Origin: Xestospongia muta
Taxonomy: Eukaryota; Porifera; Demospongiae; Haplosclerida; Petrosiidae
DNA: 64,000 nt
Direction: 5' to 3'
Assembly (NCBI GenBank): GCA_963693285.1
Contig: OY848917.1
Coordinates: forward strand, 3,648,618-3,712,617
Of this stretch, positions 23,301 to 63,200 are shown in pieces (position 1 is the stretch's first letter; every line of letters starts with the position of its first letter). The notes under the pieces were generated by a model, which saw nothing but the letters and a program-made list of their open reading frames with translations, was not told the origin of the DNA and did no database searches. The translations under genes and the position numbers were made by a program.

Positions 23301-26300
23301 AAAGAAGCAATCTATTTGAACAGTGTAGTAATCTGTCTCTGACTTGTACAAGTCTGTACATACATTGTACATTTGTCACTAAAGTATTTAAATTAGGAAA
23401 GTACAAACTTTTTCTGATGGAGGTTATAGAATGTTATTGTCCAAATAATTGATGTTATGAGTCAATCACATTAATTTATTACATGATATTGTTGTAATTA
23501 GCTATACTTAATTCTACTAGCATTGCCAGTAAAGTCAATATAGTGTAATGGATGTTATATGGTGAGTACTTAAGACAATACTACAAAATCTCAATATATT
23601 AATATTAGTGGTTATTAATATTCCAGTCCACATGTAATAGTAAAGTGGAGAGTATTAGAATTGCTAAGCCCTAGAAATATTTGTGGTTATCTTGTATAAA
23701 TACTGTTAATCTTGTCCACTTCATTAGTTGTAACAAACCTTGAAGACTATCCCATAAGGTCCCACCACTTGATTCTCCATGACATTCTAATTAGAGCACA
23801 GGAGATTGGCTGTCCCAAGCTACTGTATATATTAGGTTTAAATGGGTCCATCCAAAATAATTAGAATAATTGTTTGTTCTTGACACAAGAAACCAATGCC
23901 CTTAGATATGTATTTTATAATAGATAATAAATAATTTTAGGTATGAATTTAATTGGTCACAAGTATGAAATGCTTTCAAAGAATGTTATTATTTATTACT
24001 GAAAGATAAGTTTTGAAAAAAAGGCACATAATAACACTAGAACAAGATAAAAACATAACAGAACAGGATAAAAAGCATTACAGAAAGTAAATAGAAGACT
24101 CATACTAGTGAGTAGAAGCCAGAATGTTTGAGATGCTGGCTAGACTAGTTCACACAAGATAAGTTATGATTGTTATCAGTTGTAAGTGTATGTATAGTAC
24201 ATGTACTTTTGTAACATGACATATTGTTTATCAGATCTGTGTATAATATATAATGTAAAAGTGTTTTAGCACTTAATGTATACACATGTACTACATGTGA
24301 TATAACTATGTAATCTGTAGTTGTACTTATCTATATGTTGTGACCTTTATTTCTATTATTAACAGTATGGACGAATTGCTCTACATTTTGCCTGTATGAA
24401 GGGACATACAGGTACTGCCCAACTTTTAATTTCAAGTGGTGCCAATATTGATATTATTGATAAGGTTAGTAGTGACATCAAATTATTGCATTTTGTAAAC
24501 ATATTAATGAAAATAATAGTTAAGGGATCATCATATATGAGTACATCTAAAGCACCACACATGTCCAAGCACTCCACTAACAGTCAGTACTGTACTACTG
24601 ACTTCTGAATTACTAACTATAGCCTAGGAATTACCTGTAGTCCAACACACCTGTGAACAAATTCACTGTATACCTGTATGTTGGTACAACTTTAGTTATT
24701 GTGTATTCACCACAATGACTACAATCATACCAGTGTTTTAGGAATTTGAGTGTTCCTTGATACATCTATATTCACCACAGTCATTGATATTTTTATTCCT
24801 GTACAAGTCTACAGTGACTGTAGTACTATCACTACATGTAGGTAGTAGTATATACTACATAGCTACATAGTACAAAGTATGAATTGTTTGTGGTTAGTAG
24901 AGTTCCTGCCCACATGTAATAATGATGTGGGGATATTAGAATTACTACGTCCCAGAAGTATTTATGACTTCATAACATTGAAGTGTAAACACTTGAGGAG
25001 AAAAGTACATCTATAATGACTTTACATGTTTTAGTTGAAGGTGCTATAAGTGATAAGAGGAGTACAATATCCCATGACAAATTGATAATAAAAAGTCACA
25101 ATGTAACAGTTAGGGCATGTATGTAGAATGACAGTTGTTATGTTGATAGAATTATCTTTTTAATGAACATTAGATAATGATAATACAGCTGCATCAATTA
25201 AGCAATGATGTTACTATATATTACAACTGTATACTATTTTAATGATTCATGTAGACTATATACCTTAAACAAATTGGTTGTGTTTCCTGGTGTGACTGCT
25301 TTGTCACCACAAATATCACATATACCATTGTCATCAAAATTTTACTCAAAATGAGGCCATACCAAGTTTATTTGTGCTTGTTTATTGCTCCTCCTGTAGT
25401 TACCATAATTAATCAATAGTAGACTAGAGAATAAGATTTCTAACAAATCTATACACATTAGCTATATGATAATCAATATTCTAAAATATCGAGAGTATCA
25501 ATTCAAAGTTTGATATGTCATCCATTATTAATGACGATGCCTTTTTCACAAGCACGGTTCTCCTATGCATTATTGAACACCATGTGTTCATTACTAACTA
25601 GTAAAAAAGCATGGCAACACATAGTTCTTATCAAACAGACAGTCGAGTTATGTCGTGGATCAGTTATGACCCACTGTAAGCTAACTATAGTGAGAATTGT
25701 CAAACAGTACATCAATATTACCTTTCCATTTGCTGAGTACTCAAGTAGAGTTTTAACTTCATCAATCACTTTTATCATAGATTGCTCAGCACAGTATCTC
25801 ACAATTTCAATATATATTTATGATTTATAAGCAACAGTTAAAATTCACTAAGAGTTCTGTGTCTTGTTGTATAAATACTGTTAATCTTGTCCACTTCATT
25901 ACTTGTAACAAACATTGAAGTCTATCCCATAAGATCCCACCACTTGATTCTCTATGATATTGTAATTAGAGCATATCACTATATTTTACTAGTATGGGAG
26001 ACAAATGTTATAGCCATTATCTGTAATGTTTTACTATAAATGAAATAAAAGCAGTCTGTATAGTCTAAATGTAAATTTCATTTCTACTTGTAAACAGTAC
26101 TGGCTACTTTTAACATATACTGAGTTATCCTGACATACACATAATATCACAATTATATACCTATAATGTACATTGTTACTATGTAACTTCTCTAGTTCTG
26201 ATATCATTTAGTCTATGAATATGATATGCTAAGCTGGGATATCTCATTTTAAGATATCTAGCATGTTTTATGATATTGTGGCAATATTCCTGGCAATAGA

Positions 26301-29300
26301 GGTTGTTAACAGCTCTGTAATACAGTTAACTCATTTACTGTTACTCTAAATAAATTGATTGGTTACTTTATATAGTTATTTAAATTACATATAAAGTATT
26401 AGACACTAAGAAGTAGTAAATATCACTACAGTCATGTAGTTAATTGTCAGAGCTATGAAGATTCCATTTAATGTCTCATTAGTTAGACAAAAAAATTTAA
26501 TGAATGTTGGGTCCTGTGTTTGTGAGGGCTGTTGCTATGAAATTTATAAGAGGACAATCTTTGATACCACATACATGTCCTTTCTAAGAAGTGATTTGTT
26601 GAAGTTCATGAAATGTCATTTCCATAGTAATCAAAACAACATATATATTGTCAAGAATTTTAAATATATTTTGTAGTCATGTAAACAACCTAAATGATCA
26701 TGAACAGGTTAAAAGAAGCAATCTATTTGAACAGTGTAGTAATCTGTCTCTGACTTGTACAAGTCTGTACATACATTATACATTTGTCACTAAAGTATTT
26801 AAATTAGGAAAGTACAAACTTTTTCTGATGGAGGTTATAGAATGTTATTGTCCAAATAATTGATGTTATGAGTCAATCACATTAATTTATTACATGATAT
26901 TGTTGTGATTAGCTATACTTAATTCTACTAGCATTGTCAGTAAAGTCAATATAGTGTAATGGATGTTATATGGTGAGTACTTAAGACAAAACTACAAAAT
27001 CTCAATATATTAATATTAGTGGTTATTAATATTCCAGCCCACATGTAATAGTAAAGTGGAGAATATTAGAATTGCTAAGCCCTAGAAATATTTGTGGTTA
27101 TCTTGTATAAATACTGTTAATCTTGTCCACTTCATTAGTTGTAACAAACTTTGAAGACTATCCCAGAAGGTCCCATCACTTGATTCTCCATGACATTCTA
27201 ATTAGAGCACAGGAGATTGGCTGTCCTAAGCCACAGTAATTAGTCACAAGAATGAAATCCCTCCAAAAAATGTCATTATTTATTACTGAAAGATACCTTT
27301 TGAAAAAAGGGAAAAAGTAACACTAGAACAAGATAAAAGCATAACAGATCAGGATAGAAAGCATTACAGAAAGTAGATTGAAGACTCGCCCTAGCGAGTA
27401 GAGCCAGAATGTTTGAGATACTAGCTAGTTCACACAAGATACCTAGCCTTCTAACTGTTTATTAATCTGGTGCTACCTTTTACACTTATACCTGCTAACT
27501 CTCTACAGCAGGAGGTATATATAATATAAAATATGAGGTTAACTAACATTATGGTATCATATTATAGTTGTGACCAGTGAGGGTACAGTAATTTAGTACT
27601 TTTATGATGTAGTGATTGTAGTATATATTAGATATGATGATAGCCTGTGTCCTGAGTAATAGTTATCTAGTAACAGGTACTTAGTATTAAGTAGTTTACA
27701 TTCCTATTAAGCTAGTAAGGAATACATACAGTCTCATTTAACATTACCTTACATATTAATGTTTTAGTACAACTATATCTTTACAGTACATTGTACCAGT
27801 AAGTATAATATGTATATTATAAGGTGTTAGTAAGGACCAGGTACATCAACTTATGATTGTTATCAGTTGTAAGTATATGTATAGTACATGTACTTTTGTA
27901 ACATGACATATTGTTTATCAGGTCTGTGTATAATATATAATGTAAAAGTGTTTTAGTACTTAATGTATACACATGTACTACATGTGATATAACTATGTAA
28001 TGTGTAGTTTGTACTTATCTATATGTTGTGACCTTTATTTCTATTATTAACAGTGGGGACAAACTGCTCTACATAAGGCCTGTATGAATGGACATACAGG
28101 TACTGCCCAACTTTTAATTTCAAGTGGTGCCAATATTGATATTACTGATGAGGTTAGTAGTGACATCAAATTATTGCATTTTGTAAACATATTAATGACA
28201 ATAATAGTTAAGGGATCATCATATATGAGTACATCTAAAGCACCACACATGTCCAAGCACTCCACTGACAGTCAGTGCTGTACTACTGACTTCTGAATTA
28301 CTAACTATAACCTATGAATTGCCTATAGTCCAACTCACCTGTGAACAATTTCAATATATATATGTATGTTGGTATAACTTTAGTTATTGTGTATTCACCA
28401 CAGTGACTACAATCATACCAGTGTTTTAGGAATTTGAGTGTTCCTTGATACATCTATATTCACCACAGTCATTGATATTTTTATTCCTGTACAAGTCTAC
28501 AGTGACTGTAGTACTATCACTGCATGTAGGTAGTAGTATATACTGCATAGCTACATAGTAACAGAGTATTTATTGTTTGTGGTTAGTAGTGTTCCTGCCC
28601 ACATGTAATAATGATGTGGGGATATTATAATTGCTAAGTCCTAGAAGTATTTATGGCTTCATAACATTGAAGTGTAAACACTTGAGGAGAAAAGTATATC
28701 TATAATCACTTTAGAATTTCATATCTACTATATGCACCACACCCCTTAATACATGTACATGTAATTGAAACAATAAAAAAGACATTGTATATCTGAGCCA
28801 CTTTGGGTTAATTGATGCATGCTGTATATGAGCCTTATCATATCAGCCTGTCTGGTACTGTACCATTGCTATTGAGTATTTGTGAAAATTGTCTTAAAAA
28901 TGAAATTGATTGTAGAGGGAAGAAAGCTAATTCATGACAGATTCACCTTAAATGAGAAGGTTGGGTATAAACAGTATATGTGTGTCACACTGCATTGCAG
29001 TAAACACTTCTGCTTGTCTGAATATTTAAGGAGTGTGCCCTGGGTACAAGATGGCATGTATATTCAAAAGGAAAATGGCCTCACAGTACTAAATTAGCAA
29101 TTCTAATAACCCCACATTATTCTTCATATTCTTTTTTATGTTTTAGTTAAAAGCGCTATAAGTGATTAGAGGAGTACAATATCCCATGACAAATTGATAA
29201 TAAAAAGTCACAATGTAACAGTTAGGGCATGTATGTAGAATGACAGTTGTTATGCTAATAGAATTATCTTTTTAATGGACATTACCTTACTGCAGATAAT

Positions 29301-32300
29301 GATAATGCAGCTGCATCAATTAAGCAATGATGTTACTGTATATTACAGCTGTATACTATTTTAATGATTCATGTAGACTATATACCTTTTAAAAATTGGT
29401 TGTGTTTCCTGATGTGACAACTTTGTCACCACAAATATCACAAATACCACTGCCATCAGAATTCTAATCAAAATAAATCCATACCAAGCTTCTTTTGTGC
29501 TTGTTTATTGCTCCTCTTGCAGTTGTTATAATTAATCAATGGTAGACTAGAGAAAAAGATTTCTAACAACTCAATACATGTTAGTTTTTGATGTTGATCA
29601 ATTTGATACTAAAGTAAACTTAAGTTTGGTGTGTGGGTGGCTAGTGGCTAGTTAGCTTTATTACAGGTGTGGTTAATATGGGTGTGGTAAGTACAAATAT
29701 TGATATTAATACAGCAATAATTGTAATACTGATAATAATTAATATTCTAAAATATTGAAAGTATCAATTCAAAGTTCAATATATCATCCATTATTAATGA
29801 CGATGCCTTTTTCACAAGTACAGTTTTCCTATGTTATGAGACAATCACATTAATTTATTACATGATATTGTTATGATTAGCTATACTTAATTCTACTAAC
29901 ATTACCAGTAAAGTCAATATAGTGTAATGGATGTTATATGGTGAGTACTTAAGACAAAACTACAAAATATCACTATATTCATATTAGTGGTTATTAATAT
30001 TTCAGTCTACATGTGATAGAAAAATAGGGAGTATTAGAATTGCTAAGCCCTGGAAATATTTGTGGTTATCTTGTATAAATAAATACCGTTAATCTTGTCC
30101 ACTTCATTAGTTGTAATAAAACTTGAAGACTATCGCAGTAGGTCCCACCACTTGATTCTCCATGATATTCTAATTAGAGCACGGGAGATTGGCTGTCCCA
30201 AGCTACAGTATATATATTAGGTTTAAATGGGTCCATCCAAAATAATTAAAATAATTGTTTGTCCTTGACACAAGAAACCAACTCCCTTAGATATGTACTT
30301 AATAATAGATAATAAATAGTTTTAGGTATGAATTTAATTAGTCACAAGTATGAAATGCCTCCAAAAAATGTTATTACTTATTGCTAAAAATATTTATTAC
30401 CTGGCCTTCTAACTGTTTATTAATCTGGTGCTACCTTTTACACTTATACCTGCTAACTCTCTACAGCAGGAGGTATATATAATATAAAATATGAGGTTAA
30501 CTAACATTATGGTATCATATTATAGTTGTGACCAGTGAGGGTACAGTAATTTAGTACTTTTATGATGTAGTGATTACAATATATATTAGGTATAATGATA
30601 GTCTGTGTCCTGAGTAATAGTTATCTAGTAACAGGTACTTAGTATTAAGTAGTTTACATTCCTATTAAGCTAGTAAGGAATACATACAGTCTCATTTAAC
30701 ATTACCTTACATATTAATGTTTTAGTACAACTATATCTTTACAGTACATTGTACCAGTAAGTATAATATGTATATTATAAGGTGTTAGTAAGGACCAGGT
30801 ACATCAACTTATGATTGTTATCAGTTGTAAGTGTATGTATAGTACATGTACTTTTGTAACATGACATATTGTTTATCAGGTCTGTGTATAATATATAATG
30901 TAAAAGTGTTTTAGCACTTAATGTATACACATGTACTACATGTGATATAACTATGTAATGTGTAGTTTGTACTTATCTATATGTTGTGACCTTTATTTCT
31001 ATTATTAACAGTGGGGACGAACTGCTCTACATTGGGCCTGTAGGGATGGACATACAGGTATTGCCCAACTTTTAATTTCAAGTGGTGTCAATATTGATAT
31101 TATTGATCAGGTTAGCAGTGACATCAAATTATTGCATTTTGTAAACATATTAATGACAATAACAGTTAAGCGATCATCATATATGAGTACATCTAAAGCA
31201 CCAAACATGTCCAAGCACTCCACTGACAGTCAGTGCTGTACTACTGACTTCTGAATTACTAACTATAGCCTATAAATTACCTGTAGTCCAACACACCTGT
31301 GAATAAATTCATAATATATATCTGTGTGTTAGTATAACTTTAGTTATTATGTATTCACCACAGTGACTACAATCATACCAGTGTTTTAGGAATTTGAGTG
31401 TTCCTTGATACATCTATATTCACCACAGTCATTGATATTTTTATTCCTGTACAAGTCTACAGTGACTGTAGTACTATCACTACATGTAGGTAGTAGTATA
31501 TACTGCATAGCTACATAGTAACAGAGTATTTATTGTTTGTGGTTAGTAGTGTTCCTGCCCACATGTAATAATGATGTGGGGATATTAGAATTGCTAAGTC
31601 CCAGAAGTATTTATGGCTTCATAACATTGATGTGTAAACACTTGAGGAGAAAAGTACATCTATAAGAAGTTTAGAATTTCATATCTACTGTATGCACCAC
31701 ACCCCTTAATACATGTACATGTAATTGATATAATAAAAAAGACATTGTATATTTGAGCCACTTTGGGTTAATTAATGCATGCTGTATATGAGCCTTATCA
31801 TATCAGCCTGTCTGGTACTGTACCATTGCTATTGAGTATTTGTGAAAATTGTCTTTAAAATGGAATTGATGTAAAGGGAAGCAAGCTAATTCATGACAGA
31901 TTCACCTTAAATGAGAAGGTTGGGTATAAACAGTATATGTGTGTCACACTGCATTGCAGTAAACACTTCCGCTTGTCTGAATATTTAAGGGGTGTGCCCT
32001 GGGTACAAGATGGCATGTATATTCAAAAGGAAAATGACCTCACAGTACTAAATTAGCAATTCTAATAACCCCACATTATTCTTCATATTCTTTTTTATGT
32101 TTTAGTTAAAGGTGCTATAAGTGATAAGAGGAGTACAATATCCCATGACAAATTGATAATAAAAAGTCACAATGTAACAGTTAGGACATGTATGTGAAAT
32201 GACAGTTGTTATGCTAATAGAATTATCTTTTCAGTGGACATTACCTTACTGCAGATAATAATAATACAGCTGTATCAATTAAGCAATGATGTTACTGTAT

Positions 32301-35300
32301 ATTACAGCTGTATACTATTTTAATGATTCATGTAGACTATATACCTTTTAAAAATTGGTTGTGTTTCCTGATGTGACAACTTTGTCACCACAAATATCAC
32401 AAATACCATTGCCATCAGAATTTTACCCAAACTAATTCCATACCAAGCTTATTTTGTTCTTGTTTATTGCTCCTCCTCCAGTTGTCATAATTAATCAATA
32501 GTAGACTAGAGAATAAGATTTCTAACAACTCAATACATGTTAGCTTTTGATGTCGATCAATTTGATACTATAGTAAACTTAAGTTTGGTATGTGAGTGGC
32601 TAGTGGCTAGTTAGCTTTATTACAGGTGTGGTTAATATGGGTGTGGTTAGTACAAATATTGATATTAATACAGCAATAATTGCAATACCGATAATAATTA
32701 ATATTCTAAAATATTGAAAGTATCAATTCAAAGTTCAATATATCATCCAATATAATGACGATGCCTTTTTCACAAGCACGGTTCTCCTATGCATTATTTA
32801 ACACCACATGTTCATTGCTAACTAGTAAAAAAGCATGGCAGCACATGGTTCTTATCAAACAGACAGTCGAGTTATGTCATGCATCATTTATGACCCACTG
32901 TAAGCTAACTATAGTGAGAATTGTCAAACAATACATCAATATTACCTTTCTATTTGCTGAGTACTCAAGTAGAGTTTTAACTTCATCAATCACTTTTATC
33001 ATAGATTGCTCAGCACAGTATCTCACAATTTCAATATATGTTTGTGATTTATAAGCTACAGTTAAAATTCACTAAGAGTTCTGTGTCTTGTTGTATAAAT
33101 ACTGTTAATCTTGTCCACTTCATTACTTGTAACAAACATTGAAGTCTATCCCATAAGATCCCACCACTTGATTCTAAATGATATTGTAATTAGAGCATAT
33201 CACTATATTTTACTAGTATGGGAGACAAATGTTATAGCCATTATCTGTGATGTTTTATTATAAACGAAATAAAAGCAGTTTGTATAGTCTAAATGTAGAT
33301 TTCATTTCTACTTGTAAACAGTACTGGCTACTTTTAACATAATACAGAGTTATCCTGTCATACACATAATGTCACAATTATATACCTATAATGTACATTG
33401 TTACTATGTAACTTCTCTAGTTCTGATATCATTTAGTCTATGAATATGATATGCTAAGCTGGGATATCTCATTTTAAGATATCTAGCATGTTTTATGATA
33501 TTGTAGCAATATTCTTGACAATAGAGGTTGTTAACAGCTCTGTAATACAGTTAACTCATTTACTGTTACTCTAAATAAATTGATTGGTTACTTTATATAG
33601 TTATTTAAATTACATATAAAGTATTAGACACTAAGAAGTAGTAAATATCACTACAGTCATGTAGTTAATTGTCAGAGCTATAAAGATTTCATTTAATGTC
33701 TCATTAGTTAAACAAAAATTTAATGGATGTTGGGTCCTGTATTTGTGAGGGCTGCTGCTATGAAATTTATAAGAGGACAATCTTTGATACCACATACATG
33801 TCCTTTCTAAGAAGTCATTTGTTAAAGTTCATGAAATGTCATTTCCATAGTAATCAAAACAACATATATATTGTCAAGAATTTTAAATGTATTTTGTAGT
33901 CATGTAAACAACCTAAATGATCATGAACAGGTTAAAAGAAGCAATCTATTTGAACAGTGTAGTAATCTGTCTCTGACTTGTACAAGTCTGTACATACATT
34001 GTACATTTGTCACTAAAGTATTTAAATTAGGAAAGTACAAACTTTTTCTGATGGAGGTTATAGAAAGTTTTTGTCCAAATAATTGATTTTATGAGTCAAT
34101 CACATTAGAATTGCTAAGCCCTAGAAATATTTGTGGTTATCTTGTATAAAAGCTAGTAATCTTGTTCACTTCATTAGTTGTAACAAACACTGAAGAGTAT
34201 CCCAGAAGGTCTTACCAATTGATTCCCCATGATATTGTAATTAGAGCACAAGAGAATGGCTGTCCCAAGCTACAGTATATATATTAGGTTTAAATGGGTC
34301 CATCCAAAATAATTAGAATAATTGTTTATTGTTGATACAAGAAACCAATGCCCTTAGATATGTACTTAATAATAGATAATAAATAGTTTTAGGTATGAAT
34401 TTAATTGGTCACAAGTATGAAATGCCTCCAAAGAATGTCATAATTTATTACTGAAAGATACCTTTTGAAAAGGCACAAAGTAACACTAGAACAAGATAAA
34501 AGCATAACAGAAAGTAAATTGAAGACTCATGCTAGTGAGTAGAAGCCAGAGTGTTTGAGATGCTGGCTAGACTAGTTCACACAAGATACCTGGTCTTCTA
34601 ACTGTTTATTAATCTGGTGCTGCCTTTTACACTTATACCTGCTAACTCTCTACAGCAGGAGGTATATATAATATAAAATATGAGGTTAACTAACATTATG
34701 GTATCATATTATAGTTGTGACCAGTGAGGGTACAGTAATTTAGTACTACTTTTATGATGTAGTATTGTAGTATATATTAGATATGATAATAGCCTGTGTT
34801 CTGAGTAGTAGTTATCTAGTAACAGGTACTTAGTATTAAGTAGTTTACATTCCTATTAAGCTAGTAAGGAATACATACAGTCTCATTTAACATTACCTTA
34901 CATATTAATGTTTTAGTACAACTATATCTTTATAGTACATTGTACCAGTAAGTATAATATGTATATTATAAGGTGTTAGCAAGGACCAGGTACATCAAGT
35001 TATGATTGTTATCAGTTGTAAGTGTATGTATAGTACATGTACTTTTGTAACATGACATATTGTTTATCAGGTCTGTGTATAATATATAATGTAAAAGTGT
35101 TTTAGTACTTAATGTATACACATGTACTACATGTGATATAACTATGTAATGTGTAGTTTGTACTTATCTATATGTTGTGACCTTTATTTCTATTATTAAC
35201 AGTGGGGACGAACTGCTCTACATTATGCCTGTATTAATGGACTTAGAGGTACTGCCCAACTTTTAATTTCAAGTGGTGCCAATATTGATATTACTGATGA

Positions 35301-38300
35301 GGTTAGTAGTGACATCAAATTATTGCATTTTGTAAACATATTAATGACAATAACAGTTAAGGGATCATCATATATGAGTACATCTAAAGCACCAAACATG
35401 TACAACCACTCCATTGACAGTCACAGTTGTACTACTAACTTCTGAATTACTAACTATAACCTATGAATTACCTGTAGTCCAACACACCTGTGAACAAATT
35501 CACTATATACCTGTATGTTTGTATAACTTTAGTTATTGTGTATTCACCACAGTGACTACAATCATACCAGTGTTTTAGGAATTTGGGTGTTTCTTGATAC
35601 ATCTGTATTCACCACAGTCGTTGATATTTTTATTCCTGTACAAGTCTACAGTGACTGTAGTACTATCACTGCATGTAGGTAGTAGTATATACTACATAGC
35701 TACATAGTAACAGAGTATTAATTGTTTGTGGTTAGTAGTGTTCCTGCCCACATGCAATAATGATGTGGGGATATTAGAATTGCTAAGTCCTAGAAGTATT
35801 TATGGCTTCATAACATTGAAGTGTAAACACTTGAGGAGAAAAGTACATCTATAATCACTTTAGAATTTCATATCTACTATATGCACCACACCCCTTAATA
35901 CATGTACATGTAATTAAAATAATAAAAAAGACATAGTATATTTGAGCCACTTTGGGTTAATTAATGCATGCTGTATATGAGCCTTATCATATCAGCCTGT
36001 CTGGTACTGTACCATTGCTATTGAGTATTTGTGAAAATTGTCTTAAAAATGGAATTGATTGTAGAGGGAAGCAAGCTAATTCATGACAGATTCACCTTAA
36101 ATGAGAAGGTTGGGTATAAACAGTATATGTGTGTCATGCTGCATTGCAGTAAACACTTCTGCTTGTCTGAATATTTAAGGGGTGTGCCCTGGGTACAAGA
36201 TGGCAGGTATATTCAAAAGGAAAATGGCCTCACAGTACTAAATTAGCAATTCTAATAACCCCACATTATTCTTCATATTCTTTTTTATGTTTTAGTTAAA
36301 GGTGCTATAAGTGATAAGAGGAGTACAATATCCCATGACAAATTGATAATAAAAAGTCACAATGTAACAGTTAGGACATGTATGTGAAATGACAGTTGTT
36401 ATGCTAATAGAATTATCTTTTCAGTGGACATTATCTTACTACAGATAATGATAATGCAGCTGCATCAATTAAGCAATGATGTTACTGTATATTACAGCTG
36501 TATACTATTTTAATGATTCATGTAGACTATATACCTTTTAAAAATTGGTTGTGTTTCCCGATATGACAACCTTGTCACCACAAATATCACAAATACCATT
36601 GCCATCAGAATTTTACTCAAAATGAGTCCATACCAAGCTTATTTGGTTCTTGTTTATTGCTCCTCCTGCAGTTGTCATAATTAATCAATAGTAGACTAGA
36701 GAATAAGATTTCTAACAACTCAATACATGTTAGCTTTTGATCTCGATCAATTTGATACTAAAGTAAACTTAAGTTTGGTGTGTGGGTGGCTACTGGCTAG
36801 TTAGCTTTATTACAGGTGTGATTAATATGGGTGTGGTTAATACAAATATTGATATTAATACAGCAATAATTACAATACTGATAATAATCAATATTTTAAA
36901 ATATCAAAAGTATTGATCAATAGTTCAATATATATCTCCCATTATTAATGACGATGCCTTTTCACATACATGGTTTTCCTATACACTATTTTACATGTTA
37001 TGTGAAGCAAAAATTGTTAATTAATTTGCCCTGGGTAGGGCCTTTTTATATCCAACCTCCTCATTTAATGGAAGAAATGTTTTGTAACTGTTGTCATAGT
37101 AACTGGTATTGTGCTATCATTAAAAACTTATTCAGTTTGTCATTTGTTTTTGATATATATCAGTGTAGTAAGTAATGTAATTTTAATTCTCACTTTGGAT
37201 TGTTAATTACAACACTCAAGTCAATGTATTATATATACATGTACATGTGTATATACATAATGTTTATACATATATCATGTACATGTACATTTTATACACG
37301 TACATGTACATAGCATGTACCCTGAAACTTTATGCCTTAAATACCAGGCATTAAAGAATTTTAATTTGTCACCTAATATTTTCTATGATATATATATATA
37401 TAACTACAATGTAGTTAATTTGTTAATCTTAATGACAGTTTACTATCTGAAATTATTTGTTATTTATTTATGTTATTTTAGTATGGCAAGAAACCATTGG
37501 ATTATATTGACAATAAAGAGACTGTTCAGTTAATAAGTAAGTGGTTTATTAAGTGTACAATGTTTGTTATTTTAACTTTTCATATAATGCTGTACACAAC
37601 ACCTGTAACCTTTATATTTACCAAACGAAAGTATCATTATAGTTTTTCATATTAACTTGTTAGGTTTGTTGAAAACTGTTTTATCTGAATACATCATTAA
37701 TGGCCTATAACTCAATGTAATTGGTTTACTTAATTCAATTTCTTGTTAACTTCCTTTCCACCATATTTAATTTATGCTGAGTTAAATTTTAATTTTTGTG
37801 CATTGGAGGATTATTCAAAGTTCCAATGAAAAAACTGGCTATATGGCAGTCTGACTAGACTTTAAAATTAATACATGTATCAGAGCTACAATACCTTGTA
37901 CAACACTATAAAACACCACATATTAACTGGTTAAATTTGTTGAAAACTGTTTTAGCTAAATATATCATTGATGGCCTATAGCTCAATGTAATTGGTTTAC
38001 TTACCACTGAGATATAAATATGCATTTCATTTTATGTAGTTTTATGATAATCATTTAAATCTTGTTTGCCTTTACAATTGTCAATGGTTCATCCACAATG
38101 GTCTTATGTTAAGTTTACAAAAGTAATAGCTTATGATTAAGTGACCTTGTAAGCATACTTAAATAAAAGAATTTGTGAAGTTCTTTTAATAATAGTTAAT
38201 ACAGTTTGTAATACAATTATGTGTGATTACAGCTTCAATTGTGGACATTCTAGTACTAGGAATAATATCATAAAATTATAATTATATTAAGGTAAAATTC

Positions 38301-47990: not shown

Positions 47991-48300
47991 AGACTTGATT
48001 CACTCGTATAACAATTAATCATTAATCAAAAAATTGATCTCACTTCATTATATACATATTATGTTGTAATAATGATCACTTGGTGAACAATGGACTGTAG
48101 AGTAAAGAGTGGTAAAATACCATCAAAAATACAACGCTATTACATTGATCGGTAATTTTTAACCAGTGGAAATTTTACAACTAATGTAAAACATCAATTT
48201 TCCAAACGTAAAGTGAAAATTTTCCCTGTGTAGACTTGCTGACCGCTTGATGCGAATGGTATGAGAGCTGTCGAGGCGACTTGCCCAGGGTGACGACATA
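47991..48300 (+). promoter_or_regulatory. Spacer between HECT and transposase genes
   Basis: 310 bases without an ORF. It must hold the 3' end of the ligase gene and, if the two are transcribed separately, the transposase promoter. No AATAAA or TATA motif stands out. Confidence 0.3.
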
Positions 48301-51265: not shown

Positions 51266-51298
51266 ATGGCGACTAAAGATGGAAAAAAGATGAGATTT
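51266..51298 (+). CDS. Gene C first exon (MATKDGKKMRF)
   Basis: Eleven codons to a GTAAGT donor. The final two codons (RF) differ from LI in B and DL in A2, in otherwise nearly identical sequence. Confidence 0.7.
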
Positions 51299-54200
51299 GT
51301 AAGTTAAACGACTCATTAATAGTTAGTAATATGTTCTAATGACTCTATTTATCGTATAAAGTTGGTAATAGTTGTACACTCAGTCTTATCTCCTTTGTAT
51401 ACATTAACATTGACACTACAGTATCTTGTATACTACTGAGTTATTACTAACTTCTATTAACATAGTCTCTCATTTAGTCTATTATAATACTCCTTTATAT
51501 CAACTGATATCTATAGTAGTTAAGTGTGGCCTGACCCTTAGTTATTAATTAATTAAATAATCAGGTCTGTCACCTTATATAGTCATTGCTTGTGGAAATG
51601 GAGTCTCTGTGTCAGGACCACTTCATATACAGAAATTGTGACACACAGTTCTATAAAAGAATGTGCTAATTAACTGCTGCAGCATATAGTGTGGTAGAAC
51701 AAGTTTGATATATACATGTTACTAGATCCTTCCTCTCTAAGTAAAGAGGTGACGATGACAGACTAGCTTTTGGTATGACTACATGAGTTTTAAATGAGTT
51801 AAAAGATGACTTATAATAACCTGGTGGAGTTAAGGATTTAAAAAAATCAGTGATGAAACATCAAAACTTTTTTCTAATAATTAAATTTGAAGTTAACATT
51901 TATACCTGCTCTACTTTTATTTGACTGTTTACTATTTCAATTATGATAGAAGGGTTAAATAAGACTGATGTCATATCCTCCTGTAGTAGAGTTTTTCCAG
52001 CTGGTCACATTTATATTTATTATACACAGTGGTTCTGAGCCTCAACTTTCATAAGGACCAGAATATGCTTGACGATATCTATAGCTATACATTTAGTTGT
52101 CCTCTTAAAGTTGCTTTAGTCATTTGAGAACCCATTCTTACATGTACATGTACATGTAGTATGATAGGACACTATTAGTATTACTAAATTTACAATTATA
52201 TTCATGACTTGTCAGCTTCTAAAGAATTACCAAGAAGACTGACAACACTGTGTTAATTATACATATAGGTTATTATGTAGGTTTATTGTAGATTTACTCC
52301 TTCAATACTTGTAATAAAATCATCATTTTTACATCATAAAAACAGTCTATAGGTAAGATTTGAAAAGTAACTATTTAAAATAGTCTTCTTTAGCTAGTGG
52401 TATGTATGAGACTCTTCAGAAGTAATAGCAGAACTAAGAGAAACTGTGGTTACATCTGTATCATAGATATTTCTTATTTAAAAGTCCAACCTAATTTCTA
52501 GCTACCACCTAGCAGTGTTTGTAGTGTAGGAAAAGTAAAACGTTTCATTTACTTGTTTGGGAGTTTCACATTTCTCTCTCTATCTCTTTTGCCTTTTCTG
52601 TCATTATATACTCTTGTTATTAACTTATTATATGTTAATGAGAAACATGATGACACCTTGTGTACTACTGATATGAGTGTGCATTATTTAGAGTATGTAT
52701 GTTAGTTTATGTACCTACTATAATTATACAGTGTAGTTATTATTTTGTATGTACATATTATAATAGACAATAGTGTGTGTGTGTGTGTTAATTGTCTGTT
52801 GTACTTCTGACATCACAAACTGTTACTCACCTACATGTACTAATGTAACTTAATATCACATACTAGTACAAGTTGTAGACATGTCAAAATAATTGACAAA
52901 TTATGAGATGACTATAATTATAACATGACTAATTAATTATATGTGGTTTATTCTCTTGAGTTATATAATGAATTACTTTATAATAATGTGTTCCTCTTCC
53001 TTAGGACGATGATCTATTCGAAGCTGCATTCAATGGTAATATAGCAAAAGTAAAGAAAGCAATTGAAAATGAAAATATTCATGTTGATGCTACATCAGTA
53101 AGTAATATCATTATAATCACACTACAATACTTACAAGATCTAATGGGAACTTTAATTGTACAGTGATTACTAGTAGTATTGTTATTGTTATTGTATAATT
53201 CTATTTTAAGTGTATACAGACAAAAAGTACTTATTTTGGAACTAGAAAATAAATTATTGGCCAGAGAATATAAAGTGAAATTATTAAGTTAGTTAGCAAC
53301 AACTTTGAAGTGACTATAGGTCATTGTGTTCATAATAATGTGTGAGGTCCACACTTTACAACTGATTTATAGCTGATCCAGTGTTTTCCTGAAGTGTGTT
53401 AAGTACATTTGTTGCACACTTTGATTTTCATTAGAAGTAGGTGGGGTTAAAGCCACACCCATCAAACAAGCTTGCCTTGAATTGTAATACTATTTTGTAA
53501 ATAAAGTTTTATTAATAAAATGACTCGTTGAACATGTACTTTTTCCTGACTCTACTTTGGACTCTTCCAATCTTTCTTCAGATCTGTAAGAAAAAAATGT
53601 CAAAGTGACCACATGACTAAGTAATATATTATCTAAAACTACTACATCATTTTTAATGTTGTTTAGTAGACAACACTCATACTAATTAGTGTAGTTGGTA
53701 ACTTTGGCTTGTAATAATATTATTTGGTAGATTGATCTACAATCTGATAATTTAACTTTGATATAATAAAATTTGACTGTGTTCTTCTGTTAACAAAGGA
53801 ACATTCCTTGAGTATATTGATACTGAGTCTGTTGAGAAACATTTGAAGAAAGTATGTTCTAGTCATTTTCTGTACTATATCACTTGAAAGTGTTCTCAAT
53901 TAAACTTAAAACTCCACCCTCTACATGACAAAAATTAATATTGCTTGAATTAAATTTGGTAGTCCATGTAAAGATTTGTCAAAACACCAAATTTAATTGT
54001 CCATCAAATTATCTAGTTATAGTGATAAAGTTAATGATGTGTGAAATTTGTAATGATTGTTTTTTGATTTTCAAAGGATTATGTGTACTTTGTGGAATAA
54101 ACTATGATATTGAGTTATTATAATATGTTTGTGTACTTTATATATCACATGTAATGATTTATCATTTATATCTCTTTGTTCAGGATAGTTACACAATGCT

Positions 54201-57200
54201 AATTGGAGCAAGTGCAGGAGGATGTGAACAATTAGTTATTTATCTCTTAGGTATGGGAGCAACTGTGAACATTCAAGATATTGTAAGTGTAGATATTTAC
54301 ATTGTATAGTATATATTTCATGTTATGTCATTATATTTACAAGTTATAACATAGGACAGCAACTATTTGTTTTGACATAAAGGATTACCTGTGTTGCTTA
54401 AAACTGTTGTCATAACTTTAGCTATCATATCATAACTGATATACATAGTTCTAAAGCTACAGTTTATCATAAAAGTTAAGAGTCAATTCTCATATTTCTG
54501 GCTTTTATTATTCCTATATTTAAACACTGCCCTTGAATGGTGACCATCCTTGAATGTCTCTCCTTGTTGGACATGAATTAAACACTTCAACAAGTTCAGC
54601 TATATTCAGCTATATAGCACATGTGTAACAATTAATAAACCACACTCCCACAAAAAGGTTCTTCATAAATTGTATGACATATCTTGTTTCTTGAACAATC
54701 ATGAAAATTAGGACCCTCAAATTTACTAACTGTACAGTACTTCCATTTTTGATATTAATAAAATTTAATGAGACAGAACCAATCTATATTGTCTACATGT
54801 ACCTTGCATTTATACTAAACCACAAAAACTTGTGTTCTAACACAATATTAGCTGTAATATGATCCAGTCTGTAGATGAGAACTTAGGTTTCAATCTGTGA
54901 TATCTAGTATATTGTACATTAATTTATTAATAGACTTGACATTAAGGATTGTTATGTATTATACATAATCTTTAATGTTACAATAGTGTTGTTTACACCA
55001 TCATAATTTCAAATATAACAGTAACACTTAAACACACACATGTACATGTAATTCTAAACAATCTTGAGAAACATTATATGCCAGGCTGTAACACTTGTGT
55101 ATTAAGTAATATAATTATATGGACCCATATAGAAGACTGTCCCATTTTAGAAAGCTCTAATAAAACTAGACAATAGTCTATCATATCTTTGAAAGAATGA
55201 CATTTATGACTTCATACAATTGTAGATCTATTGTTGATTTGTCTGCTACTTTCTAGTTAGTATTGAACCTCTCCTTTGTCTACATGATATACATAATTAT
55301 TAAGTTTGGTGTGTGGGTGGTTAGTGGCTAGTTAGCTTTATTACAGGTGTGATTAATATGGGTGTGGTTAATACATATATTGATATTAATACAGCAGTAG
55401 TCACAATACTGATAATAATCAATATTCTAAAATATCAAAAGTATTGATCAATAGTTCAATATATATCTCCTATTATTAATGATGATGCCTTTTCACATAC
55501 ATGGTTTTCCTATACACTATTTAATAATAAAAAAGACATTGTATATCTGAGCTACTTTGGGTTAATTAATACATGCTGTATATGAGCCTCATCATATCAG
55601 CCTGTCTGGTACTGTACCGTTGCTATTGAGTATTTGTGAAAATTGTCTTAAAAATGCAATTGATTGTAGAGGGAAGCAAGCTAATTCATGACAGATTCAC
55701 CTTAAATGAGACAGTTGGGTATAAACAGTATACGTGTGTCACACTGCATTGCAGTAAACACTTCCACTTGTCTGAATATTTAAGGGGTGTGCCCTGGGTA
55801 CAAGATGGCAGGAATATTCAAAAGGAAAATGGCCTCACAGTACTAAATTAGCAAATCTAATAACCCCACATTATTCTTCATATTCTTTTTTATGTTTTAG
55901 TTAAAAGCGCTATAAGTGATAAGAGGAGTACAATATCCCTTGACAAATTGATAATAAAAAGTCACAATGTATCAGTTAGGGCATGTATGTGGAATGGCAG
56001 TTGTTATGCTAATAGAATTATCTTTTTAGTGGACATTATCTTACTGCAGATAATGATAATACAGCTGCATCAATTAAGCAATGATGTTACTGTATATTAC
56101 AGCTGTATACTATTTTAATGATTCATGTAGACTGTATACCTTAAACAAATTGGTTGTGTTTCCTGATGTGACAACCTTGTCACCACAAATATCACAAATA
56201 CCATTGCCATCAGAATTTTGCTCAAATGAGTCCATACCAAGCTTATTTTGTTCTTGTTTATTGCTCCACCTGCAGCTGTCATAATTAATCAATGAGAGAC
56301 TAGAGAATAAGGTTTCTAACAACTTGATACACATTAGTTTTTGATGTGGATCAATTTGATACTAAAGTAAACTTAAGTGTGGTATGTGAGTGGCTAGTGG
56401 CTAGTTAGCTTTATTACAAGCGTGGTTAATATGGGTGTGGTTAGTACAAATATTGATATTAATATGGCAATAATTGCAATACCGATAATAATTAATATTC
56501 TAAAATATTGAAAGTATCAATTCAAAGTTCAACATATCATCCATCATTAATAACGATGCCTTTTTCACAAGCACAGTTCTCGTATGCATTATTTAATACC
56601 ACGTGTTCATTACTAACTAGTAAAAAAGCATGGCAGCACATGGTTCTTAAGGCCACCTTACACGGTGCAACATTGTTGCACGCAACATATTGTGTGCAAC
56701 ATGTTGCATGGAGTAGACAAGCTTTCTATTCCATGCAACTCTTCGCAACATGTTACATGCAACACTTTTTTAAATCATACACCATGCAACATGTTGCACA
56801 CAACATGTTGTACTGTGTATGGTGGCCTTTATCAAACAGAGTTGAAAGTTAGTATATCACACAAAAATATTATATATAAAAATTTTATTGATGGATCCTC
56901 GGAATTTTATGCCAGATTGTAGCTTCCAATTCTCTTGTGTGTGCTACAGCATGGTCCATCCTAGACAGAGTTACACAGCCTATGATTCTATGAGTGCCAT
57001 ACCAATATGTTATAAAGACTATGGCAATGTTTGTTATTACCTTCCTGAAAGACAAGAAACAGTTGTGTGGTAGGCATTGGCAGTCGAGTTATGTCGTGCA
57101 TCAGTTATGACCCACTGTAAGCTAACTATAGTGAGAATTGTCAAACAGTACATCAATATTACCTTTCTATTTGCTGAGTACTCAAGTAGAGTTTTAACTT

Positions 57201-60200
57201 CATCAATCACTTTTATCATAGATTGCTCAGCACAGTATCTCACAATTTCAATATATGTTTGTGATTTATAAGCTACAGTTAAAATTCACTAAGAGTTCTG
57301 TGTCTTGTTGTATAAATACTGTTAATCTTGTCCACTTCATTACTTGTAACAAACATTGAAGTCTATCCCATAAGATCCCACCACTTGATTCTATATGATA
57401 TTGTAATTAGAGCATATCACTATATTTTACTAGTATGGGAGACAAATGTTATAGCCATTATCTGTAATGTTTTATTATAAATGAAATAGAAGCAGTCTGT
57501 ATAGTCTAAATGTAGATTTCATTTCTACTTGTAAACAGTACTGGCTACTTTTAACATATACAGAGTTATCCTTTCCTACACATAATGTCACAATTATACA
57601 CCTATAATGTACATTGTTACTATGTAACTTCTCTAGTTCTGATATCATTTAGTCTATGAATATAATAAGCTAAGCTGGGATATCTCATTTTAAGATATCT
57701 AGCATGTTTTATGATATTTTAGCAATATTCTTGACAATAGAGGTTGTTAACAGCTCTGTAATATAGTTAACTCATTTACTGTTACTCTAAATAAATTGAT
57801 TGGTTACTTTATATAGTTATTTAATTACATATAAAGTATTAGACACTAAGAAGTAGTAAATATCACTACAGTTATGTAGTTAATTGTCAGAGATATGAAG
57901 ATTCCATTTAATGTCTCATTAGTTAGACAACAAATTTAATGAATGTTGGGTCCTGTATTTGTGAGGGTTGTTGCTATGAAATTTATAAGAGGACAATCTT
58001 TGATACCACATACATGTCCTTTCTAAGAAGTCATTTGTTGAAGTTCATGAGATGTCATTTCCATAGTAATCAAAACAACATATATATTGTCAAGAATTTT
58101 AAATGTATTTTGTAGTCATGTAAACAACTTAAATGATCATGAACAGGTTAAAGCAAGCAATTTATTTGAACAGTGTAGTAATCTGTCTCTGACTTGTACA
58201 AGTCTGTACATACATTGTACATTTGTCACTAAAGTATTTAAATTAGGACAGCACAAACTTTTTCTGATGGAGGTTATAGAAAGTTTTTGTTCAAATAATT
58301 GATTTTATGAGTTTATCACGTTAGCATTGCTAAGCCCTAGAAATATTTGTGGTTATCTTGTATAAATACTGGTAATCTTGTCCACTTCATTAGTTGTAAC
58401 AAACATTGAAGACTATCCCAGAAGCTCTTACCACTTGATTCTCCATGACATTCTAATTAGAGCACAGGGGAATGGCTGTCCCAAGCTACAGTATATATTA
58501 GATTTAAATGGGTCCATCCAAAATAATTAGAATAATTGTTTGTTGTTGATACAAGAAACCAATGCACTTAGATATGTACTTAATAATAGATAATAAATAA
58601 TTTTTAGGTATGAATTTAATTAGTCACAAGTATGAAATGCCTCCAAAGAATGTTTGGTTATCTCAAGCTATAGTATTTATTATGATTGTTATCAGTTGTA
58701 AGTGTATGTATAGTACATGTACTTTTGTAACATGACATATTGTTTATCAGGTCTGTGTATAATATATAATGTAAAAGTGCTTTAGTACTTAATGTATACA
58801 CATGTACTACATGTGATATAACTATGTAATGTGTAGTTTGTACTTATCTATATGTTGTGACCTTTATTTCTATTATTAACAGTATGGACGAACTGCTCTA
58901 CATTATGCCTGTATTAATGGACATACAGGTACTGCCCAACTTTTAATTTCAAGTGGTGCCAATATTGATATTACTGATAAGGTTAGTAGTGACATCAAAT
59001 TATTGCATTTTGTAAATCATATTAATGACAATAACAGTTAAGGGATCATCATATATGAGTACATCTAAAACACCACACATGTCCAAGCACTCCATTGACA
59101 GTCAGTGCTGTACTACTGACTTCTGAATTACTAACTATAACCTATAAATTACCTGTAGTCCAACAAACCTGTGAACAAATTCACTATATACCTGTATGTT
59201 GGTATAACTTTAGTTATTGTTTATTAACCACAGTGACTACAATCATACCAGTGTTTTCAGAATTTGAGTGTTCCTTGATACATCTATATTCACAACAGTC
59301 ATTGATATTTTTATTCCTGTACAAGTCTACAGTGACTGTAGTACTACCACTGCATGTAGGTAGTAGTATATACTACATAGCTACATAGTACAAAGTATGA
59401 ACTGTTTGTGGTTAGTAGTGTTCCTGCCCACATGTAATAATGATGTGGGGATATTAGAATTGCTAAGTCTTAGAAGTATTTATGGCTTCATAACATTGAA
59501 GTGTAAACAACTGAGGAGAAAAGTACATCTATAAGAAGTTTAGAATTTCATATCTACTATATGCACCACACCCCTTAATACATGTACATGTAATTGAAAT
59601 AATAAAAAAAGACATTGTATATCTGAGCCACTTTCTTTATCATCATTACATTAGCCCCCATAGCTTTATCCTATGAGGTTATTATAAAGTTATTGACCAA
59701 TGTCATAGCCAGGCCTAGAAATGTCTGGATTAATTAGTGGTTGCCCAGGCAACTTTTTAATACCACACAATTTTGAATGACATTTCTTTACATCAACTCG
59801 AATCAATTATTTTTTTTCTGGTAAAGCTAGCTGTTTCATTTAGAAAACTAAGTAGTTTACTTGTAGTAAGTCTTCATTAAATCATACAGACTACAGTATT
59901 ATTATCAAGCCTCAATCCAAGCAAGTAATTGACCACTTCCATCATGAGTACTTAATTATAGGGAGATCTTTGTTTCACATTGCATGCTGTATATGAGCCT
60001 TACTATATCAACCTGTCTGGTGCTGTACCATTGCTATTGAGTAATTGTGAAAATTGTCTTAAAAATGGAATTGATAAGAGGAGTACAATATCCCATGACA
60101 AATTGACAATAAAAAGTCACAATGTAACAGTTAGGACATGTATGTATGTAGAATGACAGTTGTTATGTTGATAGAATTATCTTTTTAGTGGACATTACCT

Positions 60201-63200
60201 TACTGCAGATAATAATAATACAGCTGCATCAATTAAGCAATGATGTTACTGTATATTACAGCTGTATACTATTTTAATGATTCATGTAGACTATATACAT
60301 TAAACAAATTGGTTGTGTTTCCTGATGTGACAACCTTGTCACCACAAATATCACAAATACCATTGCCATCAGAATTTTACTCAAAATGAGTCCATACCAA
60401 GCTTATTTTGTGCTTGTTTATTGCTCCTTTTGCGGTTGTTATAATTAATCAATAGTAGACTAGAGAATAAGATTTCTAACAACTCAATAAACATTAGCTT
60501 TTGATGTTGATCAATTTGATACTAAAGTAAACTTAAGTTTGGTATGTGGGTGGCTTAGTGGCTAGTTAACTTTATTACAGGTGTGATTAATATGTTACTC
60601 TAAATAAATTGATTAGTTACTTTATATAGTTATTTAAATTACATATAAAGTATTAGACACTAAGAAGTAGTAAATATCACTACAGTCATGTAGTTAATTG
60701 TCAGAGCTATGAAGATTCCATTTAATGTCTCATTAATTAAACAAAATAAAATTTAATGGATGTTGGGTCCTGTATTTGTGAGAGCTGTTGCTATGAAATT
60801 TATAGGAGGACAATCTTTGATACCACATACATGTCATTTTTAAAAAGTCATTTGTTGAAGTTCATAAAATGTTATTTCCATAGTAATCAAAACAACATAT
60901 ATATTGTCAAGAATTTTAAATGTATTTTGTAGTCATGTAAACAACCTAAATGATCATGAACAGGTTAAAACAAGCAATCTATTTGAACAGTGTAGTAATC
61001 TGTCTCTGACTTGTACAAGTCTGTACATACATTGTACATTTGTCACTAAAGTATTTAAATTAGGACAGCACAACCTTTTTGATGGAGTTTATAGAAAGTA
61101 TTTGTCCAAATAATTGATGTTATGAGTCAATCACATTAATTTATTACATGATATTGTTGTGATTAGCTATACTTAATTCTACTAGCATTGTCAGTAAAGT
61201 CAATATAGTGTAATGGATGTTATATGGTGAGTACTTAAGACAATACTACAAAATCTCAATATATTCATATTAGTGGTTATTAATATTCCAGCCCACATGT
61301 GATAGAAAAATAGGGAGTATTAGAATTGCTAAGCCCTAGAAATATTTGTGGTTATCTTGTATAAATACTGTTAATCTTGTCCACTTCATTAGTTGTAACA
61401 AACCTTGAAGACTATCCCAGTAGGTCCCACCACTTCATTCTCCATGACATTCTAATTAGAGCACAGGAGATTGGCTGTCCCAAGCTACAGTATATATTAG
61501 ATTTAAATGGGTCCATCCAAAATAATTAGAATAATTGTTTGTCATTAATACAAGAAACCAATGCTCTTAGATATGTACTTAATAATAGATAATAAATAAT
61601 TTTAGGTATGAATTTAATTGGTCACAAGTATGAAATGCCTCCAAAAAATGTTATTACTTATTGCTAAAAATATTTATTACCTAGCCTTCTAACTGTTTAT
61701 TAATCTAGTGCTACCTTTTACACTTATACCTGCTAACTCTCTACAGCAGGAGGTATATATAATATAAAATATGAGGTTAACTAACATTATGGTATCATAT
61801 TATAGTTGTGGCCAGTAAGTATAATATGTATATTATAAGGTGTTAGTAAGGACCAGGTACATCAAGTTATGATTGTTATCAGTTGTAAGTATATGTATAG
61901 TACATGTACTTTTGTAACATGACATATTGTTTATCAGATCTGTGTATAATATATAATGTAAAAGTGTTTTAGTACTTAATGTATACACATATACTACATG
62001 TGATATAACTATGTAATGTGTAGTTTGTACTTATCTATATGTTGTGACCTTTATTTCTATTATTAACAGGGTGGACGAACTGCTCTACATTATGCCTGTA
62101 TTAATGGACATACAGGTACTGCCCAACTTTTAATTTCAAGTGGTGCCAATATTGATATTACTGATAAGGTTAGTAGTGACATCAAATTATTGCATTTTGT
62201 AAACATATTAATGACAATAATAGTTAAGGGATCATCATATATGAGTACATCTAAAATGTAGAATGACAGTTGTTATGGTGATAGAATTATCTTTTTAATG
62301 GACATTATTTTACTGCAGATAATAATAATACAACTGCATCAATTAAGCAATGATGTTACTGTATATTACAGCTGTATACTATTTTAATGATTCATGTAGA
62401 CTATATACCTTAAACAAATTGGTTGTGTTTCCTGATGTGACAACCTTGTTACCACAAATATCACAAATACCATTGCCATCAGAATTTTACTCAAAATGAG
62501 TCCATACCAAGCTTATTTTGTTCTTGTTTATTGCTCCTCCTGCAGTTGTCATAATTAATCAATAGTAGACTAGAGAATAAGATTTCTAACAACTCAATAC
62601 ATGTTAGCTTTTGATGTTGATCAATTTGATACTAAAGTAAACTTAAGTTTGGTGTGTGGGTGGCTAGTGGCTAGTTAGCTTTATTACAGGTGTGATTAAT
62701 ATGGGTGTGGTTAATACAAATATTAATATTAATACAGCAATAATCACAATACCGATAATAATCAATATTCTAAATTATCAAAAGTATTGATCAATAGTTC
62801 AATATATATCTCCCATTATTAATGACGATGCCTTTTCACATACATGGTTTTCCTATATACTATTTTATGTGAAGCAAAAATTGTTAATTAATTTGCCCTG
62901 GGTAGGGCCTTTTTATACCCAACCTCCTCGTTTAATGGAAGAAACATTTTGTAACTGTTGTCATAGTAACTGGTATTGTGCTATCATTGAAAACTTATTC
63001 AGTTTGTCATTTGTTTTTAATATGGATCAGTGTAGTAAGTAATGTAATTTTAATTCTCACTTTGGATTGTTAGTTACAACACTCAAGTCAATGTATTATA
63101 TATACATGTACATGTGTATATACATAATGTTTATACATATATCATGTACATGTACATTTTATACACATACATGTACATAGCATGTACCCTGAAACTTTAT

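Follow-up and report, generated by a model that had tools for sequence, protein, structure and literature searches.

Exons that are shuffled, hold a single repeat each and code for a hypervariable binding face are already known from the brown-algal LRR-ROCO genes, on which Zambounis et al. reportedly worked in 2012, and the same design without its exon part is known from fungal NLRs. In the sections covered here, the algal genes are described as coding for ROC-COR proteins with a single leucine-rich repeat (LRR) in each exon, the exons having a fixed length and a common phase, with positive selection on the concave binding face, exon shuffling and a proposed function as immune receptors (PMC11378527). 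For fungal NLRs with highly conserved ANK, TPR or WD repeats, the section covered describes ANK repeats that are near-identical except for positively selected sites, all but one on the concave binding face, together with a variable repeat number and an inferred exchange between repeats (PMC4986451). Here we analyse a window (the whole stretch of DNA studied, 64,000 nucleotides, C1:3648618-3712617) within the 158-Mb genome of the sponge Xestospongia muta. It contains 99-base exons, each coding for a single ankyrin repeat of a class termed ANK2. These exons very probably form the target-binding part of a tandem family of Roco-type intracellular candidate immune receptors, under strong diversifying selection and with repeat exons that were duplicated and probably exchanged.

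The sponge genes share with the algal ones the single repeat per exon with symmetric phase and the diversifying selection on the binding face, a face assigned here by numbering. They differ in that the algal exons code for LRRs and have 72 bases and phase 2, whereas those of the sponge code for ankyrin repeats and have 99 bases and phase 0. Alternative splicing is documented in the algae, while the sponge genes were read from DNA, and the sections covered on the algal genes, which are not animal genes, name no CARD or Death end (PMC11378527). The fungal receptors carry a NACHT or NB-ARC switch instead, and introns between their repeats are not described in the section covered (PMC4986451). In Tetrahymena, ectopic recombination has spread 90-bp repeat exons of fixed length and uniform phase, which form huge families; however, these are LRR exons of phase 2 in a ciliate, and the term 'positive selection' is absent from the main text of that report (PMC6564038). 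The demosponge Dysidea avara has expanded receptor families with CARD and Death domains, but these are NACHT-LRR proteins, and the words ankyrin, ROCO, tandem and exon are absent from the main text (PMC12909245). Passages on sponge and metazoan immunity describe NLR, pattern-receptor and TRADD-N repertoires, partly with ankyrin repeats, and contain no such exons (PMC12909245, PMC8242945, PMC8195603). Death-domain proteins of Amphimedon queenslandica, such as LOC109584972, combine ANK repeats, a Roc-COR-like core (43% identical) and a Death domain in one protein, although the repeats of LOC109584972, judged from its sequence, are few and mutually dissimilar. No paper on variable ankyrin exons in animal Roc-COR genes was found in open-licence PubMed Central by title and start of abstract.

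When the genome was queried with the DNA of a single exon, 27 copies were obtained, 25 of them on the + strand at C1:3.49-3.82 Mb and two at C1:11.48 Mb. The 25 copies make up a tandem cluster with 13 Roc-COR exons. The DNA read comprised 260 kb including the window, plus four pieces, with C1:3.74-3.85 Mb covered by three 9-kb pieces, and gene-level results cover the nine of the 13 cluster genes with Roc-COR exon sequence. In each gene read, the order is one ANK1 exon (99 bases), one to four ANK2 exons (99 bases), a Roc-COR exon, an exon termed X2 that continues the COR region, and a CARD or Death exon, with 2, 1, 1, 1, 2, 2, 2, 4 and 2 ANK2 exons across the nine genes. The eight ANK2 exons of the window are split over three genes, all on the + strand: g7 (2704..2802, phase 0, 33 amino acids; 6194..6292), g8 (24366..24464, 28054..28152, 31012..31110 and 35203..35301) and g9 (58883..58981; 62070..62168). 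The initial annotation had mentioned neither this division nor the Roc-COR and CARD or Death parts. As read from the DNA, the repeat exons hold one repeat each, with AG/GT borders and phase 0 at both ends, so that the frame stays intact when exons of this kind are gained, lost or swapped. In g8, the units around the last three ANK2 exons are 94-96% identical over 2.4-2.6 kb. The protein into which these exons would be spliced is predicted to consist of an N-terminal ankyrin cap (N-cap), ANK1, one to four ANK2 repeats, a C-terminal cap (C-cap), a Roc-COR GTPase and a CARD or Death domain.

All eight exons were found at the starts given in the initial annotation, with AG before and GT after each, and their flanking 20 bases on both sides were identical except for one base behind the exon at 31012. 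The residues reported for codons 1, 8, 11 and 33 proved correct on re-reading, and the synonymous difference reported at codon 23 is present in the exon at 6194. Differences indeed cluster in codons 1, 3, 8, 11, 12, 31 and 33, as had been claimed, while unlisted changes occur at codons 2 (2704), 4 (24366), 14-15 (35203), and 17 and 26 (31012). Across the 25 cluster copies, the number of different amino acids is highest at codon 1, with seven, and falls to six at codon 8, to five at each of codons 11, 12 and 33, to four at codon 3 and to two at codon 31. Since three of the 25 copies are identical to others, 22 distinct exons were used in the tests, and the two exons at 11.48 Mb are outside all cluster statistics. 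Amino-acid heterozygosity was 0.65 at six contact codons named in advance versus 0.10 at the remaining 27 (permutation p 1e-5, the lowest value attainable with 100,000 permutations), and the same test on the 14 distinct exons outside the eight annotated at first gave p 5e-5.

The six codons were named from designed ankyrin repeat proteins (DARPins), whose randomised positions are 2, 3, 5, 13, 14 and 33, corresponding to exon codons 33, 1, 3, 11, 12 and 31 after a shift by two. In this numbering, the proposed match of the variable codons to ankyrin contact positions is good for six of them, while the hot codon 8 (DARPin 10) lies outside the set. Six randomised positions per repeat are given in the passages covered of PMC9611651. 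According to the passages covered, human ankyrins conserve G2, TPLH 4-7, A9, G13, L21-22, G25 and A26, in a numbering equal to that of the exon codons (PMC8781854), and by this numbering the hot codons fall between the conserved positions. By their numbering, the hot codons would lie on the target-facing side of the fold. One ANK2 exon matched Pfam Ank at 2.2e-10, above cut-off, and the joined repeats matched 459 distinct PDB sequences at E 0.001. A homolog search with the joined repeats gave at least 117 proteins at E 1e-20 (7,992 candidates scored), 23-42% identical, the named ones belonging to many groups, among them the sponges Ephydatia and Oscarella, with no close relative among the 7,992.

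Near-identical introns had also been reported. This holds for the 200 bases upstream, with a mean divergence of 2.2% (300 pairs, 25 copies), but downstream only 19 of the 25 copies share one intron, with a mean divergence of 5.2% over 450 bases, the other six being largely different. These six copies were picked from the pairwise distance matrix and left out of the intron-tree tests and the simulations; for the downstream introns, pairwise distances replaced a multiple alignment inflated by the six. ANK2 exons diverge by 9.8% (300 pairs), and the suggested comparison of exon with intron divergence came out as predicted, with the exon exceeding the downstream intron in 160 of the 171 pairs among the 19 comparable copies.

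Selection was then assessed by counting nonsynonymous and synonymous differences (pN/pS). The 22 distinct exons gave 3.35 for the whole exon, 6.28 for the six named contact codons and 1.12 for 26 others, with codon 8 counted apart (pN 0.55, pS 0.002), and 14 held-out exons gave 5.62 and 0.98 at the six and the 26 codons, respectively. The codon-based dN/dS (omega) analysis that had been proposed as a check yielded values at the seven hot codons of 29.4 on the intron tree (19 copies), 18.5 on the exon tree (22 copies) and 18.4 on the tree of upstream sequence plus exon (22 copies), with likelihood-ratio p values against an omega of 1 from 1.9e-29 to 3.4e-23 over the three trees. Each of the seven codons individually showed an omega above 1 at p 0.05 in every run, and the six codons named in advance gave 15.9 on their own (p 1.8e-19). 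On the intron tree, the replacement rate at the hot codons was 21 times the intron rate. Roc-COR and X2 of the same genes are constrained, with pN/pS of 0.39 and 0.23 (counting, nine copies each; for Roc-COR whole open frames were used, so that a few codons of flanking intron are included). These results show very strong diversifying selection at the codons facing the target in the ankyrin fold.

The ANK1 exons display the ANK2 pattern again, with some positions differing. In the ten of 11 copies tested (the distal copy was left out), omega was 6.3-8.2 at the same seven codons, and counting gave a pN/pS of 2.55 at the six codons against 1.13 for the remaining ones, with a permutation p of 1.3e-3 for the named six. 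ANK1 is most variable at DARPin positions 3, 5, 2 and 13 and also varies at 4, 9, 16 and 18. In six aligned copies of the N-cap, variation is found mainly at codons 2, 6, 9, 10, 30 and 31. A distant family on C6, with nine repeat exons (eight distinct) in the 40 kb upstream of one Roc-COR exon, is most variable at DARPin positions 13, 3 and 5 (p 7e-3), and we consider it weak support for the pattern. Of 148 candidate copies on C6, 40 were scored, and two repeat-exon types alternate in the part of C6 that was read. The second type diverges by 2.0% among four copies, and this similarity is not a sign of constraint, because its downstream intron is equally similar (1.6%). On C14 and C3, ankyrin arrays occur in single open frames, many of 1000-2770 residues (for example C14:5099366-5133091 and C14:888716-891298), unlike the C1 genes with one repeat per exon.

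The core of the genes has the organisation of Roco proteins, a Roc GTPase domain followed by COR, with a GTP-binding loop. Pfam scores of the window genes for Roc, COR-A and CARD were weak but consistent, and at E 0.001 Roc was detected in 11 of 24 relatives (best 8.7e-6) and COR-A in three of 24 (best 5.3e-7). In 24 sequences, G-P-P-x-V-G-K-T at 31-38 and D-S-G-G-Q-P-Q at 199-205, which we take to be the GTP-binding loop motifs of Roc-COR, are invariant or nearly so. A sequence-profile search of the PDB with Roc-COR gave no match at E 0.01, and the best 20 fold matches of the modelled Roc-COR were all LRRK1, LRRK2 or bacterial or archaeal Roco structures. Pfam scans of the core gave no match to NACHT or NB-ARC and the fold matches Roc-COR, which sets these genes apart from NLRs. 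Among the best 120 of 367 matches listed, two were named relatives, both from Amphimedon queenslandica. An Rfam search gave no match at gathering scores. Genome-wide, Roc-COR was found in at least 76 places (76 scored of 753 candidates), 13 of them in this cluster, one at C1:11.48 Mb, 32 at C6:3.7-6.7 Mb and the rest mainly on C2 and C1, and the true number is probably larger. Large Roc-COR expansions lie at C6:3.7-6.7 Mb, C2:16-21 Mb, and C1:9.1-9.4 and 25.2-25.3 Mb.

As output domain, six of the nine genes have a CARD and three a Death domain, and one of the CARD genes (g7) also has a Death exon behind. Pfam CARD scored 0.0013 and 0.0042 in window genes, below cut-off. The CARD model has six helices and a predicted local distance difference test score (pLDDT) of 87.6; its top Foldseek matches were CARDs (caspase-1, Apaf-1 and others) with a probability of 1.00, none with E below 0.03, and against Apaf-1 the template-modelling (TM) scores were 0.69/0.81. 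Pfam recognised the Death domain of g2 and of g5 at 3e-4 to 7e-4, below cut-off, and that of g3 was identified by 97% identity to the g2 query. Output domains are thus swapped within one tandem family, with Death instead of CARD behind the same Roc-COR and X2 at C1:3522559, 3543227 and 3607297; second Death copies are present at C1:3528997 and 3613665. In g7 both output types are found (window 10757-13989), a second, 5'-shortened X2 and a Death exon following the CARD, and this gene may have arisen where a CARD-type and a Death-type gene were joined by recombination.

The architecture seen by sequence and fold, the exon copies with similar flanks and the diversifying selection carry the interpretation of these genes as candidate immune receptors. 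In such a receptor, the ankyrin stack would bind a varied protein target through its concave face, and it is binding to diverse non-self targets, or to targets in symbiosis or allorecognition, that would drive selection. By analogy with the Roco family, binding might change or release the Roc-COR GTPase switch, and the CARD or Death ends could then cluster and recruit partners as in other death-fold families. Unequal crossing-over of the phase-0 single-repeat exons would lengthen the stack (one to four ANK2 repeats), and gene conversion would move contact codons between copies, so that variants are recycled. Repeat exons have probably been exchanged between copies, as exon distance shows no correlation with the distance between flanks (r 0.10 and 0.00) and the target codons fit the intron tree poorly (retention index 0.30 versus 0.47 for introns). 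Together, these data suggest that a very early animal lineage possesses a repertoire of recognition surfaces. If true, such a repertoire would have been invented separately here on the plan known from algae and fungi, with ankyrin repeats, a Roc-COR switch and CARD or Death domains as its components, and this would permit a direct test of how animals without lymphocytes distinguish microbes or kin, since contact residues, switch and output domain are each named. The variable codons would be a natural counterpart of designed ankyrin libraries.

Several observations weigh against this interpretation or parts of it. The Pfam scores for Roc, CARD and Death in cluster genes are under the curated cut-offs, the Roc-COR model has a mean pLDDT of 64, and the pN/pS of CARD is 0.80 (counting, six copies). 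ANK2 codons outside the hot set look neutral (omega 1.2-1.3), and eleven scaffold codons have a pN of 0.038 versus an exon-wide pS of 0.035 (ratio 1.08); codons outside the hot set are without measurable constraint at this depth, and a conserved scaffold therefore has no statistical support. ANK2 codons 2, 14 and 26 also reach p 0.05, uncorrected, in one to three runs, which makes the statement that almost only contact codons vary too strong. In ANK1, p 0.05 is reached by codons 2, 7, 14 and 16 in some runs but not by codons 8, 12 and 31. In C6, pN/pS is 1.67 at the six codons versus 2.48 at the rest, and exon divergence (9.8%) is similar to that of the introns (9.0% and 11.8%). When the six ANK2 copies with a different intron are kept, the exon exceeds the downstream intron in only 162 of 300 pairs. 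Moreover, recombination violates the tree models used for the codon likelihoods. Finally, the upstream and downstream flanks are mutually uncorrelated too (r -0.18) and saturation could give the same misfit to the intron tree, so that exchange is not proven.

The fitted selection model alone is also incomplete, as an excess of transversions at the hot codons is unaccounted for in three repeat classes. In ANK2, the ratio of transitions to transversions is 680:1384 at the hot codons (25 copies) versus 623:228 elsewhere in the exon, and introns show 3090:1339 (19 copies). The direction is the same in ANK1 (105:222 versus 206:76), and in C6 the ratio is 33:110 versus 57:72, the background there not being rich in transitions itself; single-base replacements in Roc-COR stand at 623:340. 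The transition share at the hot codons was 0.305 versus 0.52 in the selection model at the fitted rate, and none of 400 runs at each of three rates was as low; a selection model with site-specific rates gave 0.48, with none of 300 runs as low as 0.305. The excess rests on an intron transition/transversion parameter (kappa) of 6, and with a kappa of 2 it is ordinary (P 0.21). It could stem from selection for radical side chains together with exchange among copies, and a special mutational process is a conceivable source. We hold it to be unlikely that, beyond ordinary mutation and selection, the contact codons of a recognition repertoire are rewritten by transversion-rich or templated exchange, with in-frame exons maybe also combined by splicing to give different receptors per gene or cell.

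It is also unlikely that old variation was merely reshuffled, gene conversion having imported codons from diverged repeat families, in which case the excess of replacements would reflect donor divergence and not ongoing selection. The lack of correlation between exon and flank distances and the poor fit to the intron tree would be expected in that case, and the number of amino acids observed (33) is lower than the 43-51 of the selection model simulated at fitted rates, although a rate of 12 reaches 33. Donor tracts, however, would also bring in synonymous and scaffold differences, which amount to only 3-4%, and diversity at the contact codons would still have to be maintained by selection.

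A mutational hotspot or targeted mutator acting at the hot codons, with little role for selection, is very improbable, even though the excess of transversions speaks in its favour. In the two closest differing exon pairs, moreover, the sole difference is a two-base change in one codon, and two-base codon changes are commoner than in the selection model when its rate is lowered (to 12, P 0.02; to 8, 0 of 400 runs), while at the fitted rate they are as common as that model predicts (P 0.35). The 19 copies contain 33 amino acids and one extra synonymous codon, and none of 1800 mutation-only simulations (300 at each of six rates) gave both at least 33 amino acids and at most one extra codon: at rates 3 and 5 the amino acids always stayed short of 33, and at rates 8 to 22 there was always more than one extra codon. 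About 33 amino acids require 8-12 times the neutral rate, at which 8-11 extra synonymous codons arise on average versus the one observed. There is no rise in the synonymous rate of the exon, which on the intron tree is 0.73 times that of the intron, and the 50 intron bases on each side of the exon are among the most conserved. Of the two possibilities left side by side in the initial annotation, diversifying selection or targeted diversification, the first is thus demonstrated and a purely mutational form of the second is rejected, a mixture of selection and targeted mutation being compatible with the data. Relaxed constraint, by which decaying or redundant repeat exons would vary freely, fits the omega near 1 at non-target codons and can be dismissed almost entirely, as there is no stop codon in 27 ANK2 exons, AG and GT are intact in 26 of 26 ANK1 and ANK2 exons of nine genes, Roc-COR and X2 of the same genes are kept under constraint, and decay cannot attain an omega as far above 1 as that of the target codons.

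The remaining exons of the candidate receptor genes in the window are likewise on the + strand. In an alignment of ten genes, homology starts abruptly near window position 17.2 kb. The candidate first exon of g8 (17308..17340, MATKDGKEMLI) is open in nine of the ten genes, with its motif found in eight, and is followed by the N-cap exon (19048..19140), open in ten of ten genes with ten different proteins, and by the ANK1 exon (20223..20321, 99 bases, phase 0). Behind the four ANK2 exons lie the C-cap exon (37482..37536), open in nine of nine genes with eight different proteins and in a phase compatible with the Roc-COR exon, the Roc-COR exon itself (38624..40299), X2 (40586..41030) and the CARD exon (41475..41803), which ends at the stop codon, an alternative donor at 41790 being possible. 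A strict motif scan missed three of ten N-caps, two of ten first exons and one of nine C-caps, while the alignments show all ten N-caps and all nine C-caps. Of g7, the window contains the C-cap exon (8005..8059, 55 bases, phase 0 to 1), the Roc-COR exon (8788..10469, borders from splice signals), X2 (10757..11201, end by analogy with g8), an open frame with the CARD exon (11611..11976), the second, 5'-shortened X2 (13105..13458) and the Death exon (13723..13989), 91% identical to the Death query from g2. For g9, we located a candidate first exon (51266..51298), the N-cap exon (53005..53097) and the ANK1 exon (54184..54282), its Roc-COR exon lying just beyond the window.

Between the genes, three open frames of 112-180 residues occupy a stretch richer in G+C (window 44991-47356), two of which were scanned and gave no Pfam match. 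An integrase-like open frame (48265-48936; Pfam rva_4, 3.4e-6) is followed by a second frame at 49071-49547. The integrase-like frame recurs between cluster genes at C1:3585947, 3641267 and 3723916, the last two matched in pieces. Open frames resembling gag/pol of retroelements, as judged by eye, lie behind X2 of g2 and g5 (C1:3524041-3528000 and C1:3608712-3612600).

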